A stretch of DNA of 46,025 bases, taken from NCBI GenBank assembly GCA_003139995.1, contig PLIC01000064.1:1-46025 (forward strand), read 5' to 3'. A model generated the notes under the pieces. The model made no database searches, was not told where the DNA came from, and saw only the letters and a list, made by a program, of their open reading frames with translations. Positions 2,386 to 22,468 of the stretch are shown piece after piece; the first letter of the stretch is position 1; each line of letters starts with the position of its first letter. This DNA comes from Candidatus Acidiflorens stordalenmirensis (GTDB lineage: Bacteria > Acidobacteriota > Terriglobia > Terriglobales > Acidobacteriaceae). The position numbers were made by a program, and so were the translations under genes.

Positions 2386-4221
2386 ATGTCAGCGTCCCGC
2401 GAAAATCACGTCCTCATCTTTTGTCTCCTATTGGTGGCTGCCACCCTTGCTTTCTACAATCCCATCGTCCATAACCAGTTCGTCGATTTCGACGACTTGT
2501 CCTATATTCAGAAGAATAACCATGTTCTGACTGGTCTGACGTGGGACAACGTGAAGTGGGCGATCACGACCCATCGCGACGGAAACTGGCATCCGTTGAC
2601 CTGGTTGTCGCATGCCTTGGATTGCCAGCTCTTTGGCCTCAATCCCGTGGGCCATCACTACACCAACCTTCTGCTGCACGCGGCCAATGCTGTGCTCCTC
2701 TTCCTGCTATTGCGGCGGGCCACTGGATTCAAATGGTCCAGTCTGGTGGTCGCTGCTTTGTTTGCCCTGCACCCGGTCAACGTTGAGTCCGTTGCCTGGG
2801 CCGCTGAGCGCAAGAATGTGCTCAGCATGTTCTTCTTCCTGCTCGCTCTCCATGCTTACGACCGGTATGGGCGCGGGGGCGGACGGTATCTTTATTGGTT
2901 AGTAACCGTTTTTTTTGCTCTCGGCCTGATGGCGAAACCGCAGATCGTCACTCTGCCTTTTGTGCTGCTGCTTTGGGACTACTGGCCGCTCCAACGAATG
3001 GGCGCCGCTGGCGGGTCACCTGCGGCTGCCACCCCACGCTCGTTCGCGTATCTCGTTTGGGAGAAGTTGCCCCTCTTTGTTCTTGCCGCGGCGGATTCGG
3101 TCGTTACGGCACTGACGCAGCGCGCAGGCGAATCGGTGCGGACGCTTTCGGAAGTTTCGGTGTCGGCGCGGCTGGAGAATGTCTTCGTCTCCTATGTGAG
3201 ATATATAGGGAAAGCGTTCTGGCCGTCCCGGCTCGCTCCCATGTATCCACGTCCAGAAGGTTCGCTGCCCGCCTGGCAGGTGGTGGGAGCCGCGGCGCTG
3301 CTGCTTCTGCTGTCCGCGCTCGTGCTGCGCTGGCGTGACCGCCGCTATTTGCCCGTAGGCTGGTTCTGGTTCCTGGGAACTTTAGTCCCGATGATCGGGA
3401 TCATAACGGTTGGCGAGCAGTCGATGGCCGACCGCTACGCCTACATCCCCTTCATCGGTTTGTTTGTCGCGGTCGTGTGGACTCTCGGTGAGGCAGCCTC
3501 GAAGCGCGGAATCCGAGGCGTTTGGCTCACCGGTCCCGCCGTTGCCGTACTCTTCCTTCTGGGATCGCTCACTTATCGCCAGCTAGGCTACTGGCGCGAC
3601 AATGAAACTCTCTGGCGCTATACGTTGCGCGTAACCGAAAAAAATTTCGTGGCGCACAATAATCTCGCGATCGCTTTGGCCAAGCAGGGCCAGCCCGACG
3701 AGGCGATCCGGGAGTTCCGGGCTGGCAGGGCGCTGCACACCTATCCGCCGGCCCAAATCCTTGCGCTGGCTTTGTACGAATTGCACGTTGGACATCCCCA
3801 GGAAGCGATCGAGGAATGCAATGCGGCGCTGCGTGCTTCCGCCGATCCGAAGGTTCAGGCCGCCGCATGGAGCGGGGTTGGTCAAGCTCAGTTGCAGTTG
3901 CACCACTACGATCAAGCCGCCGACAGCTACCGGAATGCTCTGCGCCTGAATCCGGAGGACGGCGGCGCGCTGATTGGAACGGGCCTCCTCGCGCTGCGCC
4001 AGGGGCAGTCCGGCTTGGCGGTTACGCAGTTCTTCCACGCGGTGAAAGTCGATCCCAGCGATGCGAATGTCCTTCTCTACGCGCAAGCTCTGCGCCGGGA
4101 CGGGCGTACTGCGGAGGCCGACTCCGCTTTGGCGCAAGTCCAGAAGATCTCCTCGGACTTAGGCCAAGCGCAGTTCGACGCAGGACAATTCCTCTCCTTT
4201 GCCGGCCTGAAGCCGCTGTAG
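2386..4221 (+). CDS. TMTC-like GT-C membrane protein with C-terminal TPRs
   Basis: A 611-residue protein with about ten hydrophobic segments and then tetratricopeptide repeats (about residues 424-600, e.g. NNLAIALAKQGQPDEAIREF). The first membrane helix starts at residue 8 and is followed by an FDD motif (35-37) in the first large loop. GT-C glycosyltransferases usually keep their catalytic acid there. HPLTWLSHALD and HPVNVESVAWAAERK are landmarks of the bacterial relatives of eukaryotic TMTC O-mannosyltransferases. The likely role is transfer of a sugar from a lipid-phosphate donor to a protein or glycan at the outer face of the membrane; the substrate is unknown. The start at 2386 fits the family; a TTG at 2338 would add 16 residues. 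A paralogue lies at 41950. Confidence 0.85.
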   Translation: MSASRENHVLIFCLLLVAATLAFYNPIVHNQFVDFDDLSYIQKNNHVLTGLTWDNVKWAITTHRDGNWHPLTWLSHALDCQLFGLNPVGHHYTNLLLHAANAVLLFLLLRRATGFKWSSLVVAALFALHPVNVESVAWAAERKNVLSMFFFLLALHAYDRYGRGGGRYLYWLVTVFFALGLMAKPQIVTLPFVLLLWDYWPLQRMGAAGGSPAAATPRSFAYLVWEKLPLFVLAAADSVVTALTQRAGESVRTLSEVSVSARLENVFVSYVRYIGKAFWPSRLAPMYPRPEGSLPAWQVVGAAALLLLLSALVLRWRDRRYLPVGWFWFLGTLVPMIGIITVGEQSMADRYAYIPFIGLFVAVVWTLGEAASKRGIRGVWLTGPAVAVLFLLGSLTYRQLGYWRDNETLWRYTLRVTEKNFVAHNNLAIALAKQGQPDEAIREFRAGRALHTYPPAQILALALYELHVGHPQEAIEECNAALRASADPKVQAAAWSGVGQAQLQLHHYDQAADSYRNALRLNPEDGGALIGTGLLALRQGQSGLAVTQFFHAVKVDPSDANVLLYAQALRRDGRTAEADSALAQVQKISSDLGQAQFDAGQFLSFAGLKPL

Positions 4222-4244
4222 CGCCGCAACCGGAAGAAATTTAT

Positions 4245-4267
4245 ACCGCCGAGACGCGGAAAAGACA
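4245..4267 (+). repeat. Single copy of the CCGCCGAGACGCGG dispersed repeat
   Basis: ACCGCCGAGACGCGGAAAAG matches the repeat family seen at 25506, 26259 and 27543. Here it stands alone in the 62-bp gap between two convergent genes, with no clear inverted partner nearby. Confidence 0.5.
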
Positions 4268-4283
4268 GCTGTCAGCTGGCTTC

Positions 4284-5444
4284 TCAGGTCCGCTTCAACA
4301 GCAAACAAGTAATGTCGTCGTGCTGCGGAGTGTTGCCCACGTGCCGATCCAAGTCCGCCAGTAGGCTGCGCAGCAGTTCTGCGGGTGCCGACCCCGACTC
4401 ACGATCCACCATTCGTATCAATGCCGGTTCGCCGTATTCCTCATCCTTTTGATTGACCGCTTCGACGACCCCATCGGTAAAAATCACCAGCCAATCTCCG
4501 CGGTCCAGGCGAGTCGTTCTCAACTCGTAGTGCGATTCCGCAAAAATCCCTACCGGGATGCCTCCCGCCTCCAGCCGCTCCCTAGCGCCTGAGGACTTCC
4601 GAAGAATCGGGACATTATGCCCTGCGTTGACATAAACGATGTCCCCGGTCGCCGGATCCAGTTCGGCAAGGAAGGCGGTCGTGAAGCGAACTCCGCCCAT
4701 GCTGTTCGAGCAGGCATAGCGATTCACGCCGGCCACCAATTCGGCGAGCGCGACGCCGCTCGTCGACAACGTCCGCAGACTCGCCTGAAAAGTCGCCATC
4801 AGCATCGCCGCCGGAATGCTCTTTCCCGCCACATCCGCCACCACAAACAGAATGCGGTCTTCGCTCAACGAGCGACCGGGCCGCAGGATCACATCGTAGT
4901 AATCGCCCGCCACCGTGTTTGCCGGACGTGTCGCGTACGCAATCTGGTATCCCGGAATCTGCAGCGGCGCGCCCGGCAGCAACCATGCCTGAATGTCCTT
5001 GGCGATCTCCAGGTCGCGTTTCATCACCACTCGGTCCGCCAACTCCAGCAGCAGGACGACGAATATCAGCAGCCCGCCCCACAGGCGCAAATCGAATTCA
5101 CCGATCTCGACATGATTGGCGCCGTTGGTGTAAGAAAACCGGCCGGCAGGAAGGAGCAGCAGAATCAGCGCCAGCAGCAGCAGCACGCGGCGCGCCGGGG
5201 TCAGCTTTTCCAGGATCGCCCAGAACATCGCCTTCGCGATTTGCCAGCCCCGCCGGAATCGGGACGGTTCCGCCTGCAGATGGTCGAGCCCCGCCGAGTA
5301 GAGCCGGTAGCTCGATCGCGCATCTTTTGCAAACTGCGACCAGAGCTGGTTCACAGCCAGCCCCTCGCTCACCCGATGCCAGAATTGCCGGGCATTGCCC
5401 TTCAATCGAGATCGTGGCGGAACAGTGCGCTTAGGAGAGGCCAT
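4284..5444 (-). CDS. Membrane-anchored PP2C-type (SpoIIE/RsbU) serine phosphatase
   Basis: A 386-residue protein with two membrane helices (about 87-103 and 121-136) and a C-terminal PP2C-SpoIIE domain from about residue 145. Metal-binding signatures are visible: AGDYYDV (D181), VVADVAGKSIPAAMLMA (D204), AGHNVPIL and FTDGVVEAVN. Proteins of this type dephosphorylate anti-anti-sigma factors or similar partners. No anti-sigma kinase or antagonist is encoded nearby, so the target is unknown. The gene is last in a minus-strand run and starts 31 bp after the M16 gene upstream of it, with only a weak ribosome site. The N-terminal 85 residues are cytoplasmic-looking and unassigned. Confidence 0.9.
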   Translation of the reverse strand: MASPKRTVPPRSRLKGNARQFWHRVSEGLAVNQLWSQFAKDARSSYRLYSAGLDHLQAEPSRFRRGWQIAKAMFWAILEKLTPARRVLLLLALILLLLPAGRFSYTNGANHVEIGEFDLRLWGGLLIFVVLLLELADRVVMKRDLEIAKDIQAWLLPGAPLQIPGYQIAYATRPANTVAGDYYDVILRPGRSLSEDRILFVVADVAGKSIPAAMLMATFQASLRTLSTSGVALAELVAGVNRYACSNSMGGVRFTTAFLAELDPATGDIVYVNAGHNVPILRKSSGARERLEAGGIPVGIFAESHYELRTTRLDRGDWLVIFTDGVVEAVNQKDEEYGEPALIRMVDRESGSAPAELLRSLLADLDRHVGNTPQHDDITCLLLKRT

Positions 5445-5475
5445 GGCGGAGTCAACATTATAGGCTGGCGCCCGC

Positions 5476-6975
5476 TCACGGATGCTCGCCCTGTCCCGGC
5501 ACCAGCCCCGGCGGCGGCGCCGGAATCGTAATATCCAGCTTGTTGACCGTCCCGAGCGATGGCAATGGCTTGTCGAATTCGCTCACGTTACCCACCACCA
5601 CCACCGCCATCTGCTCGCGGTGGATGTACTTCGCCGCTACCCGCGCTACGTCTTCCTTAGTAACTCCTTCGATCCCTTTCTGAAAGTTCTCTAGAAAATC
5701 CAGCGGATAGCCATAAAACTCGTAAGCCATTTTTTCCTGCAAAACCTTCGCCGGTGAATCGAAACGGAAGACAAAAGAATTCAAAATCGCGTCCTTGGCG
5801 CGCTTGATTTCCTCATCGTTAATGGGACGCTTGGCGAGATCGGCGATCTCTTCATCGAGCGCCTGAATGGATTCGATGGTGGTCTTGCTCTTGGTGCCCA
5901 CCATCAGCCGCAACATGCCGGGATGATCCCAGCCCGCGCCCACTCCACCGCCTGCTGCGTATGCGAGTCCTTTGCTGGTTCGAATTTCATTAAACAGCCG
6001 CGACGAAAATCCTCCGCCGAATGCTTCGTTGAACACCGACACCGCAAAGTAATCGGGATTCCTGCGCGTAATGCCCAGCGCCACCATCAGAATGTTGCTT
6101 TGATTCACGTCGGTCTTGTCGGCCTGGTAATAACCAGGTTTCGCGGGATCCGGCTTGAACTGGGCTTGAGGCTCATCCTTCCTTGCCACGGGACCTTTCG
6201 GCCAAGAGGCAAATGCCGCGCGCAGTTTGGCTTCCATGGCGGCAGAATCAAAGTCGCCGACTACGCCGAGGATGATGTTGTTCGGGTGAACGTGATCGTC
6301 GTGCCACTGTACAAGATCCTGACGAGTGATCGCCGCCACGGTCGCATATTCCGCGACCCGCGCATAAGGATTATTTGCGCCGTAGACCAGCTTCGCCGCT
6401 TCCCGTCCCGCGATCTGTTCGGGATCGTCATTGCGCCGCGAGATGCCGTCGTACATCCCCTTCTGCGCAATTTCAATTTTGCCGGCGCGGAATTCCGGAT
6501 TCTTCAGCACATCCTCGAACACGCGAAACACGTCGTCGAAATCTTCTTTCAGACACGACCAGCTCACGGTTGTCGAGTCGATGCCTCCGCCGGTCTCGAC
6601 CTTCGCGGCGCGCTGCTCCAGATAGTCGTCGAGTTGATCGCCGGTCTGAGACTTCGTGCCGCCGGTGCGCCACACTTCGCCATAAACATCGGTCAGGCCC
6701 GTCTTGTTCGGCGGAACCGAGCGCTCGCCGCCACGGATGCGAGCGGTGCCATCAATGGTCGGCAACTCGTGGTCTTCCTGGAGAAAAACCACCATGCCAT
6801 TCGGCAACTCGATGCGCTTCGGCTGCGGTGGATGAAACGTGGGCAACTTAGGAATCGGTATCTGCTGCCAGGGCTGCTGCGAAGTCGCCTGCGCCTGCGC
6901 CCACAGTTGCAAGTTGCCGCTGAAGAAGCCAACTAACACGACCAGAGCAAAGAAAGAAAAGAGCGCGCGCTTCAC
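5476..6975 (-). CDS. M16-family peptidase homologue, catalytic motif lost
   Basis: A 499-residue exported protein with signal peptide MKRALFSFFALVVLVGFFSG. It has the two-lobed M16 fold, including the C-lobe motif SKGLAYAAGGG. Where active M16 enzymes have HxxEH, this one reads TDVYGEV (about 95-101), so it cannot bind the catalytic zinc. Such inactive subunits pair with an active partner, as in mitochondrial MPP and several bacterial periplasmic M16 pairs. The partner is the gene directly upstream: its stop and this start share an ATGA overlap (6972-6975), suggesting coupled translation and equal amounts. Confidence 0.92.
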   Translation of the reverse strand: MKRALFSFFALVVLVGFFSGNLQLWAQAQATSQQPWQQIPIPKLPTFHPPQPKRIELPNGMVVFLQEDHELPTIDGTARIRGGERSVPPNKTGLTDVYGEVWRTGGTKSQTGDQLDDYLEQRAAKVETGGGIDSTTVSWSCLKEDFDDVFRVFEDVLKNPEFRAGKIEIAQKGMYDGISRRNDDPEQIAGREAAKLVYGANNPYARVAEYATVAAITRQDLVQWHDDHVHPNNIILGVVGDFDSAAMEAKLRAAFASWPKGPVARKDEPQAQFKPDPAKPGYYQADKTDVNQSNILMVALGITRRNPDYFAVSVFNEAFGGGFSSRLFNEIRTSKGLAYAAGGGVGAGWDHPGMLRLMVGTKSKTTIESIQALDEEIADLAKRPINDEEIKRAKDAILNSFVFRFDSPAKVLQEKMAYEFYGYPLDFLENFQKGIEGVTKEDVARVAAKYIHREQMAVVVVGNVSEFDKPLPSLGTVNKLDITIPAPPPGLVPGQGEHP

Positions 6976-8516
6976 TGTCCACCTCCTTGCGGCCCTGCAC
7001 CCGCTCCCGGAGGCCCGCCTGCAAACTCGATAATCCCCACCGTCCGGTTATCGGGTGTGAACGTCTGATTCGCGACGCGCCGGATATCTGCCTTGGTAAC
7101 TTTTTCGATGCGGTCGACCGAGCGGAACAATTCCCGCCAGTCGTCATAGCGCGACTGATACAGACCAAGCGCGAGCGCCAGACCCTCGTTCGATCCGAGC
7201 GAGCGGATCAGGTTCGCCTTGGCCCGCGTCTTGATCATTTTCAACTCTTCATCCGAGATGTCTTCTTTCTTCAGCCGCTCAATCTCCGCGTGAATCGCAT
7301 CGCCCATCTCCTGCGGCTTGTGGCCCGGAATCGGGAGCGCGTAAAAGGCGAACAGGTGCGGATACTTACTTCCCGGATACCCGGTAAATCCGGCCGCGTC
7401 CGATGCGATCTGCTTGTCGCGAACCAGCGCCCGGTAGAGCCGCGAAGTGCGTCCATTCGACATCAGGTCGGCGATGGCGTCGTAAATCTCGTTATCCGGG
7501 CTGCGGTAGTCGGGGCGGTGATAGCCTTCGAGATAGAACGGCTGCGACTGCTCGTGCAGCACGACGGTTCGTTCGGAATTCTGCGCCGGTTCGGTGGTCG
7601 TGGCCGTGTCGGGTTTGGGACGCGCCGGAATTCGCGAGAAATATTTCTCGACAACCGGCATCGCCTCTGAAGCTTTCACGTCTCCAACCACGGCGACGAC
7701 CATGTTCGAAGGCACATAGTACTTATCGAAAAAAGTTTGCGCGTCGGTCGCGGAAAAAGAATTCAAGTCCGAGATCCACCCGATCGTCGGCCGGTGGTAA
7801 GGATGGGCCGCGAATGCCTCTTCCGTGAATTGCTCGGATAGTCGCCCCTGGGGATCGCTGTCGGTCCTCATGCGGCGCTCTTCAATCACGACATTGCGCT
7901 CTTTGTAAAATTGCCGCATCGCCGGATGCAGAAAGCGCTCCGATTCGAGATAGGCCCACAATTCCAGCCGGTTGATGGGGAACGAGTAGAAGTAGCCAGT
8001 TTCATCGTAATCGGTGAAGGCGTTCATCCCCTCGCCGCCTTCGCCTTCGACGATCTTGCCGAACTCATTGTTGTAAGGCGCGGAGAACTTGTCGGCGGCC
8101 GCAATCGCGTCCTTCCACGTTTGCTCAAGTTGCTTGAGCTTCTGCTCGTCGCGGTTCACCGGCTTGTCGCGCTCGGCAATGTAGGCGGCGTAAGCCTCTT
8201 CAACTTTCGCCAGCGCAACTTTCTCGCCGGCGTAGTCGCGCGTGCCGATGGTGTCCGTTCCCTTGAACGCCATGTGCTCGAACATGTGCGCGAGGCCTGT
8301 CTTGCCCATAGGGTCCTGCACCGAGCCCGCATCCACGTGCGTGAAGAACGAAAACACCGGAGCCTCCGGCCGCTCGCAAATGACGATGGTGAGGCCGTTG
8401 GCGAGCTTCTTCACCGTGGTGCGCTTCTCGAACGAGGCCACATCCTGGCCGACAGCAAGCGAGCACAGCGCAAAACAAACAACAATTGTTTGTAGAAAAG
8501 TTAAGCGGGATTTCAT
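6972..8516 (-). CDS. M16-family zinc metallopeptidase, active subunit
   Basis: A 514-residue exported protein. The start at 8516 is chosen because GGAGGTAGG lies just upstream and the frame then opens with a signal peptide (MKSRLTFLQTIVVCFALCSL, ending AVGQ). The inverted zinc motif H77-M-F-E80-H81 is intact, with an acidic GEGGEGMNAFTD segment further on as the likely third-ligand region. It should degrade peptides in the periplasm or outer membrane, together with the inactive partner encoded next. It begins 34 bp after acr3 on the same strand, so it may be read through from the ars genes, although nothing ties its function to arsenic. Confidence 0.93.
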   Translation of the reverse strand: MKSRLTFLQTIVVCFALCSLAVGQDVASFEKRTTVKKLANGLTIVICERPEAPVFSFFTHVDAGSVQDPMGKTGLAHMFEHMAFKGTDTIGTRDYAGEKVALAKVEEAYAAYIAERDKPVNRDEQKLKQLEQTWKDAIAAADKFSAPYNNEFGKIVEGEGGEGMNAFTDYDETGYFYSFPINRLELWAYLESERFLHPAMRQFYKERNVVIEERRMRTDSDPQGRLSEQFTEEAFAAHPYHRPTIGWISDLNSFSATDAQTFFDKYYVPSNMVVAVVGDVKASEAMPVVEKYFSRIPARPKPDTATTTEPAQNSERTVVLHEQSQPFYLEGYHRPDYRSPDNEIYDAIADLMSNGRTSRLYRALVRDKQIASDAAGFTGYPGSKYPHLFAFYALPIPGHKPQEMGDAIHAEIERLKKEDISDEELKMIKTRAKANLIRSLGSNEGLALALGLYQSRYDDWRELFRSVDRIEKVTKADIRRVANQTFTPDNRTVGIIEFAGGPPGAGAGPQGGGQ

Positions 8517-20284: not shown

Positions 20285-20370
20285 GGGTCGAAGAAAATAT
20301 TACAGGAAATCGAGGTGTATGGGCTGGGGCCCTCAGCGACCGCCCATCTACCGTCTGGGGGTAGATTCGT

Positions 20371-20871
20371 TTATTTGCTCGGCTTTTTCATTTCACTCTT
20401 GATTTTGTCTTTTACCCCGCCCAAAAATGCCGTTGTAGCTTTCATGTCTTTACAGAAGGGATCCTTTGTTTCGCCCTTCAGGGCCATGGTGATAGTCACC
20501 TTCTTCGCCGCAAAGTCAAACCGCAAGGTGTTCACCACGCATATCGGGGAACTATCAATGGCGATCAGTTCCCGTTTGTCCCAGCGGAGAATATCGAAAC
20601 TGTTGAGAGTTGCCCCAGCTTCTCCGGAGAGGTACGTAGCGTCAGCTTCCTCGCAAAAGCCAAAACGCTCATAGCAGTGAATTTCGGTGGACCATACCGC
20701 CAAGTGGTCGTCGGCGTCCGACCATCTGCCCACGGCGTAGGCATACAGGGTTTCGGTTTTCTGCGCTCCTGCCACGACCGAACTGACGTCGAGAATTTGT
20801 GGGGTCTGATCCTGGGCGTAAACGAAAGCCGTTGATAATAAAACGACCACAAAAAGTAGGATTCGTTTCAT
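20371..20871 (-). CDS. Secreted protein of unknown function
   Basis: A 166-residue protein starting at 20871 behind GGAGGAA, with signal peptide MKRILLFVVVLLSTAFVYAQ. The mature part has four cysteines (IHCYERFGFCEE, SPICVV, DPFCKDM), probably two disulphides, and a charged C-terminus (KDKIKSEMKKPSK). No family is recognised. The segment TLRFDFAAKKVTITMALKG looks like a beta-strand pair. It stands alone after the acyltransferase fusion gene. Confidence 0.8.
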   Translation of the reverse strand: MKRILLFVVVLLSTAFVYAQDQTPQILDVSSVVAGAQKTETLYAYAVGRWSDADDHLAVWSTEIHCYERFGFCEEADATYLSGEAGATLNSFDILRWDKRELIAIDSSPICVVNTLRFDFAAKKVTITMALKGETKDPFCKDMKATTAFLGGVKDKIKSEMKKPSK

Positions 20872-20959
20872 GGTTCCTCCAATTCTCAAATGGCAAGCGT
20901 CGATACATCGGATGGAGCCTGATGGGGTGAATATACTAAAGAGAAAGGGTGAAAACTAG

Positions 20960-21103
20960 GCATCGATCCGATCGGTACTGGGTCAGTTTGAATCGACGGA
21001 TCACGTTTGGAGCCTCGCGGAATTGATCGCGCTGATACCAAAGCCCAGTGTGTCGGCATCGCGGATCGAAAGAGAACTCGTATTGCAAGCCCTTGGCCGC
21101 TAA
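20960..21103 (+). pseudogene. Possible transposase C-terminal remnant
   Basis: An open frame without start codon reads ...STDHVWSLAELIALIPKPSV, then SASRIERELVLQALGR and a stop at 21101-21103. The DHVWSLAELI stretch resembles the end of IS1-like transposases as remembered, but the match is short. It runs through the left 16-bp inverted repeat at 20974 and converges on the hydrolase gene. Confidence 0.25.
20974..20989 (+). repeat. Left 16-bp inverted repeat of a 1-kb cassette
   Basis: GGTACTGGGTCAGTTT, exact reverse complement of 21973-21988. The identity stops abruptly on both sides of the 16 bp. Similar GGGTCAGTTT ends occur on some insertion sequences, as far as memory allows. Confidence 0.8.
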
Positions 21104-21864
21104 ATCTTAGGCTTTTGAATGTCGGGCAACTCGTGCAGCATTGTTATCATTTGCTCGAAAGTAGCGAGTCGCTGTGATACTTCTTCTGCTGAATGCTGGT
21201 TAGTACAACCAAAAAATGCGTTAATGGCGGCTCGGAAGAAACAGTTAGCGTAGCACTCTTGTTCCAGCACTCCATCTTTCGTGTCTAGGAAATCCTTGGA
21301 ACTGTCATGGCAGATGGTGCCGTATTGCGTTATTCCATCACAGTTAGGATCAATGGACTTGATTGCGTGCAGCACTGTAAAGGCTAACAAGGCTCGATCC
21401 TTGTCTGTTTTTGCGAAAGGATACGCCCAATCTGTCAATGGCTTTGCAATAGACCTTCCGCAGCCGATGAATGCGTATGGTTCGGATGCCTCGTAACACG
21501 CCGAACCATCGCAGACCATTAACGAAAGTCCCTCGTCCCTGTGGCGAATCGCGGCTATCAATTGCAGCCCCAAGTCTCCTATCGACTGTTGGTGGGCGCT
21601 GTTAAATTCTGCCGTTTCTAGCGAGATCGTTTCTCTTGCTATAGCCAGTGAGTGATGTTTGCCAGCCATAACATTACGCAGATGTTGGATGAGTGTTTGT
21701 GCATGAGGAACGCTGCCAGCTATAGCAAAGAGAGCATCAACGTCTTTTCCGATGGCGTGCCTAAAAATCTTGTCCCCATAGTGTTGCGTAAATCCGTCCT
21801 CGTATAGACTGTCGGTGCAGAGAAGAATCGAGTTTTCGAGTTTGAATCCGGCTGCTATCGTCAC
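21100..21864 (-). CDS. Solitary proteasome-beta-like Ntn hydrolase
   Basis: A 254-residue protein that begins MTIAAGFKLENSILLCTDS and continues GDKIFRHAIGKDVDALFAIAGSVPHAQTLIQHLR. This is the layout of a proteasome-type Ntn hydrolase. After removal of Met, Thr becomes residue 1, Asp falls at 17 (CTDS) and Lys at 31 (GDKIF), against T1, D/E17 and K33 in 20S beta subunits. AGSVPHAQTLIQ matches the AG-x-x-x-DAQ-x-L segment. It is longer than beta subunits (about 200 residues) and has no alpha subunit or ATPase neighbour. By eye its codon use is AT-richer than its neighbours, and it lies inside a 16-bp inverted-repeat cassette, which suggests transfer. Substrate and oligomeric state are unknown. 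Confidence 0.7.
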   Translation of the reverse strand: MTIAAGFKLENSILLCTDSLYEDGFTQHYGDKIFRHAIGKDVDALFAIAGSVPHAQTLIQHLRNVMAGKHHSLAIARETISLETAEFNSAHQQSIGDLGLQLIAAIRHRDEGLSLMVCDGSACYEASEPYAFIGCGRSIAKPLTDWAYPFAKTDKDRALLAFTVLHAIKSIDPNCDGITQYGTICHDSSKDFLDTKDGVLEQECYANCFFRAAINAFFGCTNQHSAEEVSQRLATFEQMITMLHELPDIQKPKI

Positions 21865-21972
21865 ACTCTTCGTTCTCGGAAGTCGTTTAACTACACGTTC
21901 TACAAATGGCTGGGCTTGTGCAAGGCAAGCGGCTTTAGCGTCCCCATGCTACTCTCCTCCCTGTGGAAAGTG

Positions 21973-21988
21973 AAACTGACCCAGTACC
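21973..21988 (-). repeat. Right 16-bp inverted repeat of a 1-kb cassette
   Basis: AAACTGACCCAGTACC, exact reverse complement of 20974-20989. It ends 16 bp before the GGGGAG ribosome site of the antitoxin-like gene. Confidence 0.8.
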
Positions 21989-22017
21989 ATCCCATCCTAA
22001 CGTTGGGGAGAAACACC

Positions 22018-22242
22018 GTGGTGATGAAGAAGATCACGTTTAGTGCGGATGAAAACAAAATTGAACTGGCCCGCGAGGTCGCTCGCAGCGAGCACAAGAC
22101 GTTGAACGACGCCTTCCGCGATTGGTTGAACTGGTATGGCTCCCGCAAGGTGAGCCGCGTGGAAATAGCAGCGTTGTTTGAAAAACTCAAGTACGCCGAT
22201 GCTGGACGAAGGTTCACGCGGGATGAGATGAACGAACGTTAG
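22018..22242 (+). CDS. Orphan VapB-like antitoxin
   Basis: A 74-residue protein, KKITFSADENKIELAREVAR..., with the beta-strand plus two-helix layout of ribbon-helix-helix antitoxins. Its C-terminal tail ends in FTRDEMNER, as antitoxins that wrap around PIN toxins often do. GGGGAG at 22005-22010 fits the GTG at 22018 best (7-nt spacing); the ATG at 22024 is the alternative. No PIN or other toxin gene follows: the next 225 bp hold only palindromic repeats. The toxin has either been lost or never belonged here. Confidence 0.65.
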   Translation: MVMKKITFSADENKIELAREVARSEHKTLNDAFRDWLNWYGSRKVSRVEIAALFEKLKYADAGRRFTRDEMNER

Positions 22243-22278
22243 GTCCGTTTCTTTAGGCTTCTCGCTCTGTGGCGCCTC

Positions 22279-22335
22279 GGCGGCTAAAGCCGCCCGCGAT
22301 TTTTGCCGGGCTTACGGCGCGGCTGAAGCCGCGCC
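22279..22335. repeat. Pair of perfect GC-rich palindromes
   Basis: GGCGGCTAAAGCCGCC (22279-22294) and GGCGCGGCTGAAGCCGCGCC (22316-22335) are perfect stems of 7 and 9 bp around AA and GA. The second is followed by CCTTCAAAAC, like the copy at 12332. They lie between the antitoxin-like gene and secA. Confidence 0.7.
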
Positions 22336-22468
22336 CCTTCAAAACAAATTCAAGAGCTGAGTTTTCCGCAGCGGGCTTGTGGCGTTTGTCCTTCGCCATC
22401 TCTCCCGCATCTAATGTGCTAGGCTTTTACTGATACGTGGGACGCGTGTCCTCTGAAGGGTTTCTGTT

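Follow-up and report, generated by a model that had tools for sequence, protein, structure and literature searches.

Is the proteasome-like hydrolase gene that lies between two exact inverted repeats in an acidobacterial contig an ordinary chromosomal gene, or is it the payload of a mobile element? The question is raised by a 46,025-nucleotide stretch of Candidatus Acidiflorens stordalenmirensis (contig PLIC01000064.1; the whole stretch is called the window below), in which GGTACTGGGTCAGTTT (20974-20989) and its exact complement AAACTGACCCAGTACC (21973-21988) enclose a unit of 1015 bp (20974-21988). From the sequence alone, the original prediction had read this unit as a non-autonomous mobile cassette carrying an Ntn hydrolase, or as an insertion between two relic ends. 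Comparison with related genomes makes it very likely (probability about 0.9) that the unit is a mobile insertion cassette, that is, a transposase-deleted derivative of a passenger-carrying IS1-like element; this estimate covers the cassette reading and not the function of the gene. The ends, the 7/8 duplication, the empty site, the transposase remnant, the intact relatives, and the presence of the hydrolase beside two transposase families are shown, and what is inferred from them is marked as such below.

Ends, target site and transposase remnant of the window unit

The 16-bp inverted pair is the sole one reported between 20800 and 22300. No further match to its sequence was found in the window, even at three mismatches, and no further exact match in the 5.49-Mb assembly beyond the two unit ends. 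The repeat alone is moderately surprising and no more, given that 3/200 Markov-1 sequences of window composition contain a perfect 16-bp inverted repeat within 1.1 kb. This frequency is what speaks for the rival explanation of a chance repeat around an ordinary gene. However, none of the 200 sequences had the same repeat together with an 8-bp duplication (at least 7/8), and the duplication, the empty site, the recurrence of the ends across the family and identical ends on complete elements all but exclude chance. The features of the unit are collected in Table 1.

Table 1. Features of the cassette and of its host flanks, in window coordinates
Feature	Position	Strand	Basis or remark
Host flank, conserved promoter-like stretch (tgaatatactaaag..gaaaactagg)	20921-20965		Element-free in L020, L022, L025 and L026
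Left copy of 8-bp target duplication, ATCCGATC	20966-20973		7/8 against 21989-21996
Left terminal inverted repeat, GGTACTGGGTCAGTTT	20974-20989	+	Same 16-bp end in L094 and L160
C-terminal remnant of IS1-like transposase, ..STDHVWSLAELIALIPKPSVSASRIERELVLQALGR and stop	20990-21103	+	By-eye comparison with intact transposase C-termini
Proteasome-like Ntn hydrolase, 254 aa, GTG start then Thr (Thr1)	21100-21864	-	Pfam Proteasome, 3.3e-07
Right terminal inverted repeat with inner TTCCACAGG box	21960-21988	-	Outer 16 bp identical to left end
Right copy of 8-bp target duplication, ATCCCATC	21989-21996		7/8 against left copy
Host flank, small ORF upstream of secA	22024-22242	+	Antitoxin-like by eye only; common to same-genus genomes

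Several parts of the original prediction can be judged here. The perfect repeat held, being exact and corresponding to the ends of a mobile element, and a target duplication just outside 20974 and 21988, which had been proposed as a check and had itself been missed, is present at 7/8. The claim that the inside is AT-richer than the flanks held only partly: inside the unit, GC content is 0.46-0.52, compared with 0.55-0.63 at greater distance, yet low values (0.48-0.55) also extend over the left flank from about 20250. The suggestion of a transposase tail running through the left repeat also held, as the ORF there is a transposase C-terminus. Together, the recurring ends, the duplication and the empty site support the non-autonomous cassette reading.

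In related genomes, the genes for acyl-CoA synthetase and secA are divergent, with the conserved promoter-like stretch between them. In two genomes of the same genus, G011 (L020) and G017 (L022), this stretch continues directly into the small antitoxin-like gene without any element, which is the empty site that had been proposed as a further check; in the window, the element lies between the two. The alignment at the empty site is short, and the flanks align while the target octamer itself has diverged. In G010 (L025) and G020 (L026), the promoter-like stretch is present and neither the element nor the antitoxin-like gene was matched. The antitoxin-like ORF had no Pfam match. A protein search of 24 genomes of the genus, including the window's own, detected no close copy of the hydrolase, only distant relatives (24-34% identity) in three others. 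Thus, related genomes with the hydrolase at the same place and without the repeats, which would have refuted the cassette reading, were not encountered.

Other observations concern the host flanks themselves. In relatives, the promoter-like stretch directly precedes the acyl-CoA synthetase gene; in the window, it is separated from the start of that gene by 20285-20920, which contains a 172-aa ORF on the minus strand (20371-20889) with a signal-peptide-like start and no Pfam match. This segment appears to be an additional insertion, about 620 bp long and distinct from the cassette. Upstream of secA, 22275-22373 is a dispersed repeat with many copies in this and related genomes, in pieces of about 30-100 bp that are mostly 75-100% identical.

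The remnant at the left end is about 36 codons long and was compared by eye with intact C-termini such as that of L094 (..LTDHVWTVEELCALLPKPTVRASKIESELVTKALSR). The stop codons of remnant and hydrolase overlap (CTAA, 21100-21103), and the transposase and hydrolase ORFs of L067, L070 and L093 likewise overlap by a few bases. Because the left-end ORF reads as a transposase C-terminus and overlaps the hydrolase ORF much as in relatives, the window unit corresponds to a parent element lacking the part from the left end to the last approximately 36 transposase codons. It has no functional transposase, and its passenger hydrolase ORF is intact. Only broken pieces of a related transposase, all on one contig, were detected in this genome, and no intact cognate transposase was found in the assembly (E <= 1e-40; 92.8% complete). 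The inner part of the left end lacks the TTCCACAGG box, which the right end retains. Since one end lacks this box and only broken pieces of a related transposase were detected in the genome, the cassette is possibly immobile today. A 1067-bp cassette of the same design occurs in the same genus (L154 in G003), with a different hydrolase, its own transposase remnant and a 7/8 target duplication. Another cassette, L194 (1411 bp), has no transposase match, and its ends resemble those of L190, a locus linked to an IS1595 transposase.

The proposed history begins with an IS1-like transposon with approximately 29-bp ends and a transposase of some 295 aa, whose hydrolase payload would have stood tail-to-tail against the 3' end of the transposase gene. 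A deletion starting immediately inward of the left end and reaching the final stretch of approximately 36 transposase codons would have removed the transposase, keeping both ends and the hydrolase, and insertion would have taken place between the acyl-CoA synthetase promoter region and the antitoxin-like gene upstream of secA, duplicating 8 bp. Movement as one unit is an inference, and the element may have moved before its transposase was lost; mobilisation in trans may still be feasible, which is again inferred, in the absence of transposition data.

Complete IS1-like elements and their cargo

The 16-mer end, with at most one mismatch, was found in 129/300 genomes of the same family, compared with 26/300 for a reversed-pattern control that was counted by eye; GGTAGTGGGTCAGTTT was the commonest form listed. 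Several matches form pairs on the plus and then the minus strand, 33 bp to 5 kb apart and with differing contents, and in many ends the TTCCACAGG box continues inward of the 16 bp. Eight end pairs picked by eye (L066-L073) and 40 fetched regions, mostly around transposase matches (L091-L130), were examined. End pairs enclosing a transposase or its remnant were present in 8/8 of the former and 30/40 of the latter, giving 38 elements; the 30 come from regions that are mostly best matches to one hydrolase-bearing transposase. The target duplication is a perfect 8 bp in 36 elements and 7/8 in L068, and it was untestable in L129, which meets a contig edge. Members of the IS1 family have a short target duplication (8-9 bp) and ends starting with GG. 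In the present search, the GG start was required by the script and is therefore no independent family criterion.

Most of these elements (35/38) are 2.1-5.1 kb in size; L112 is a plain insertion sequence of 1085 bp, and L103 and L130 have only small ORFs besides the transposase. The parental plan was first seen in L066 and L067, where a hydrolase on the other strand is placed tail-to-tail with an IS1-like transposase (about 295 aa). The transposase of L067 scores 27.0 bits against Pfam DDE_Tnp_IS1 (cut-off 24.1) and 54.9 bits against NCBIfam transpos_IS1, below the cut-off of 100; as it passes the former and not the latter, it is named IS1-like here. The exact 16-bp ends of the window unit (16/16) were found on L094 (3230 bp) and L160 (3078 bp), each with an IS1-like transposase, a hydrolase in the same slot and an 8/8 duplication. 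Thus, the search for the same ends in other genomes and around other genes, also suggested by the original prediction, was successful. The alternative of an insertion between two relic ends was rejected, as complete elements with the same ends hold the hydrolase in the same slot. In a phylum sample, the IS1-like transposase was detected in 31/297 genomes at E <= 1e-60, in several families, a wider distribution than that of the hydrolase.

Some variants of these elements were also observed. Very small ones contain little beyond two ends: L080 (962-994) 33 bp, L078 (947-983) 37 bp, L079 (952-1013) 62 bp and L003 (1501-1646) 146 bp, with perfect 8-bp duplications in L079 and L080. In L072 (1039-2720), an internal deletion joins a small N-terminal ORF (GRKGGQIGGKRR) to the transposase C-terminus, and this derivative retains its ends, its duplication and an SDH-like protease. 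Many elements also have, close to one end and 5' of the transposase, a small basic ORF with the pattern GGxxGGxxRA..LT..R..IA.KAA.ARW; the copy in L067 (1036-1341) had no NCBIfam match. In L094, a second IS1-like end pair (3898-8339; GGTAGTGGTGCAGTTT) with its own perfect 8-bp duplication encloses the hydrolase element.

A profile search found the hydrolase in 7/38 IS1-like elements (L066, L067, L068, L070, L071, L093 and L094), which is not a population frequency, since eight elements were picked for their end pairs and the others lie mostly near one hydrolase-bearing transposase. Five of the 38 carry a ClpP-like or SDH-like protease: those of L072, L105, L116 and L118 are above a Pfam cut-off, and that of L069 is apparently broken and falls below it. 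Among 85 cargo ORFs collected, 73 were scanned, some of which may not be genes. Their 39 Pfam families comprise, among others, P63C (5), CLP_protease (4), GmrSD, TIR domain, Panacea, DUF3800, AlbA-type domain and DNA methylase, and their 269 PADLOC families RmrA (2), HEC-06, type II methyltransferase and capP (2). Such family matches are weak evidence of function.

The hydrolase and its association with two transposase families

The equivalents of Thr1, Asp17 and Lys33 are all present in the window hydrolase. A profile built from ten relatives matched 20S beta subunits in the PDB at 1e-11, and PHROGs gave a weak HslV-family match (1.7e-05). An AlphaFold2 model (mean pLDDT 80.9, pTM 0.76) predicts the alpha-beta-beta-alpha fold; its top Foldseek matches were Anbu and 20S beta proteins at probability 1.00, with Anbu 5nyg the best (TM 0.68/0.74, probability 1.00). 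The three catalytic positions are invariant in hydrolase alignment A1, and Thr, Asp and Lys occur together in 49/54 rows, the five exceptions being one row with Ser and four that are N-terminally incomplete as extracted. Four short rows (L166, L192, L197 and L200) were left out of the tree and of the triad count. The protein is thus inferred to be an N-terminal-threonine peptidase, peptidase activity itself being an inference, and by analogy with its relatives it would probably form rings, for which there are no assembly data.

Many relatives have, as judged by eye, a Pro/Arg-rich in-frame leader before Thr1 (KPxPKPxRLPxRK-like). The leader is recurrent and may be translated, although its codons also contain a Shine-Dalgarno-like stretch. 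In the window, no in-frame ATG, GTG or TTG was found upstream of the GTG start. No PADLOC match was obtained for three hydrolases scanned singly. The window hydrolase forms a long tree branch (2.53 against a median of 0.98) and has no close relative for a selection test, and it could possibly be decaying.

The hydrolase profile matched 52/300 genomes of the same family at 59 places, a patchy distribution, and all of these except G026:C31, which a contig edge truncates, were examined (58 loci). All six matching genomes in the phylum sample (6/297) belong to the window's family, and a narrow query against 84,980 species genomes gave 17 confirmed loci, titled Acidobacteria, Acidobacteriia, Acidobacteriaceae or Terriglobia. 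The nearest transposase lies within 1 kb at 36/58 loci, 15 being IS1-like and 21 IS1595; among these 36, 29 hydrolases are within 300 bp of the transposase and 29 are tail-to-tail with it, the latter in both groups. The IS1595 assignment rests on the transposase of L005 (the same locus as L173), with an ISXO2-like DDE domain (PF12762, 1.8e-33) and a zinc ribbon (PF12760, 3.1e-09), and the remaining IS1595 transposases were assigned by similarity to it. Terminal inverted repeats with a duplication (8/8 or 7/8) were found at 17/21 IS1595-linked loci; most of their ends resemble CA.GATTATTCACTTGACAAAG, those of L185 and L190 being of another type. Ends with a duplication surround 29/58 hydrolase loci, plus L068, and 0/58 shuffled copies (one mononucleotide shuffle per locus). 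L171, with a 12-bp inverted pair and an 8-bp match 5.4 kb apart, was excluded from the element count.

These distributions bear on a second rival, namely that the hydrolase is a host gene of this bacterial family, beside which insertion sequences land or which they occasionally acquire, the payload being unimportant to the elements. A transposase or ends were found at 39/58 loci. Of the 19 loci without either, eight have a contig end within 700 bp, and the other 11, where each flank exceeds 700 bp and no element can be detected, speak for a host gene. However, the gene is patchy within the family, its linkage is to two specific transposase families, mostly at short distance and in one orientation, and ends and duplications surround the gene, which refutes this explanation for those copies. 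A host gene is therefore considered very unlikely.

The hydrolase was also looked for in viral and plasmid sequences. A relative with a similar leader (L201, 4869-5657) lies in a 107-kb viral contig, with no IS1-like transposase or end pair in the 10.4 kb examined, and phage records gave no match for it. No match for the L067 hydrolase was found in PLSDB. The end pattern occurs in at least 120 stretches of viral contigs, and the 121 viral-contig loci examined contained three hydrolase matches, 29 IS1-like transposases and 19 end pairs with a duplication.

Is the payload exchanged between carriers? A tree of 54 hydrolases shows the carrier labels intermixed, with at least nine changes needed for the two. 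L068 (IS1-like) has L151 (IS1595) as its sister (SH-aLRT 90), both within a well-supported group of five (97). The IS1-like label is somewhat clustered, with 10 changes and 12/500 shuffles as low, and well-supported branches alone force three changes for IS1-like and seven for IS1595. As the label is clustered and these branches force few changes, the number of exchanges remains uncertain. The tree comes from a quick search in which 25/51 inner branches are weak and long branches meet.

Pairwise comparison was made for 27 of the 36 linked elements, those with a transposase above 350 bits. For 11 IS1-like elements (55 pairs), transposase identity is 67-92% (median 76%) against 20-42% (median 26%) for the hydrolase, and for 16 IS1595 elements (120 pairs) the values are 56-94% (median 67%) and 17-50% (median 25.5%), the transposases being closer than the hydrolases in 175/175 pairs. 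Between L070 and L157, synonymous divergence reaches 2.53 in the hydrolase, as against 1.09 in the transposase; both values are high and imprecise, but they suggest that the hydrolase genes split before their present carriers. Hydrolase dN/dS could be computed for four of 11 pairs, the other seven being saturated, and the values (0.12-0.21) argue, as far as four pairs can, for purifying selection. Positive selection as the cause of the divergence is unsupported by these finite pairs. An old pool of functional hydrolases moving between carriers fits best, very fast divergence in place not being excluded. The hydrolase thus looks old, under selection and exchangeable as a payload, its role being inferred.

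Possible roles of the payload and comparison with known systems

A third rival is that the hydrolase is part of the transposition system, as a peptidase removing the transposase, a host repressor or strand-transfer complexes, in which case its fixed tail-to-tail position would reflect coordinated control. For phage Mu, Clp unfoldases perform removal of this kind. In favour of this explanation are the tail-to-tail arrangement of 29/36 linked hydrolases in both transposase groups and the ClpP-like or SDH-like proteases of five other elements among the 38. Against it, the hydrolase profile finds nothing in 31/38 IS1-like elements, the hydrolases do not closely track the transposases, and the hydrolase persists in transposase-free cassettes (the window unit, L154 and L194). 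Transposition control is therefore thought unlikely. Instead, the payload is inferred to help the element or its host to compete against other genetic elements, in the manner of the defence-type genes of sister elements; this reading is preferred over transposition control, at slightly less than even odds, and the probability left by these two readings belongs to an unresolved role.

A bolder reading, no more than possible, is that IS1-like and IS1595 transposons of acidobacteria draw on a common market of payloads. A proteasome-like peptidase that is hyperdivergent but catalytically conserved, and in other elements ClpP-like or SDH-like peptidases, would be swapped in and out, for attack on or protection from phages or rival elements. 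If this were true, such mini-transposons would supply proteasome homologues whose targets are unknown, and the window unit would be a transposase-free spin-off that kept its payload.

Proteasome homologues outside the 20S proteasome comprise Anbu, HslV, BPH and 22 new subfamilies described by Fuchs et al. 2021 (PMC8665760). Their survey reports spread by phages for two subfamilies (PPH and AAH) and no telling genomic context; the words 'transpos' and 'acidobacter' are absent from the main text. The window hydrolase shares the predicted fold and the Thr/Asp/Lys triad with these proteins, its model being closest to Anbu. In contrast to them, the present hydrolases are carried by transposons, many have a Pro/Arg-rich leader, and phylum-sample hits are confined to the window's family. 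No description of a proteasome homologue as a transposon payload was found in the openly licensed literature searched. The role of many bacterial proteasome homologues is unknown and their neighbourhood uninformative (PMC8665760), whereas these hydrolases have a clear context, in transposons beside a transposase and with sister elements bearing defence-type genes, which offers a testable route to function.

As to the element itself, the ISsaga paper (PMC3129680) describes insertion sequences with passenger genes, and also cassettes that have no transposase of their own but can be activated by a cognate one. Like mobile insertion cassettes (MICs, e.g., MIC231 with IS231 ends), the window unit consists of insertion sequence ends enclosing a passenger gene without its own transposase, and MIC231 reportedly carries a peptidase gene. 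The window unit differs in its ends, which are IS1-like rather than IS231/IS4, in its retained transposase remnant, and in its payload, a proteasome-like Thr peptidase carried by complete elements of two IS families as well. The complete relatives resemble transporter ISs (tIS) in that these IS1-like or IS1595 elements have passenger genes and show 8-bp duplications; Siguier et al. 2009 is reported to treat the IS1595 family and its relation to IS1. What sets them apart from tIS is that a single peptidase family is found repeatedly in both IS families, usually at the same position, and appears to be exchanged between the two. Tn7-like transposons with defence cargo (PMC8649781) are likewise transposon platforms with diverse, often defence-type cargo, whereas the elements described here are very small, use IS1-like or IS1595 transposases and carry few cargo genes. 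Even very small IS-like elements can thus carry exchangeable peptidase payloads that outlast the transposase.
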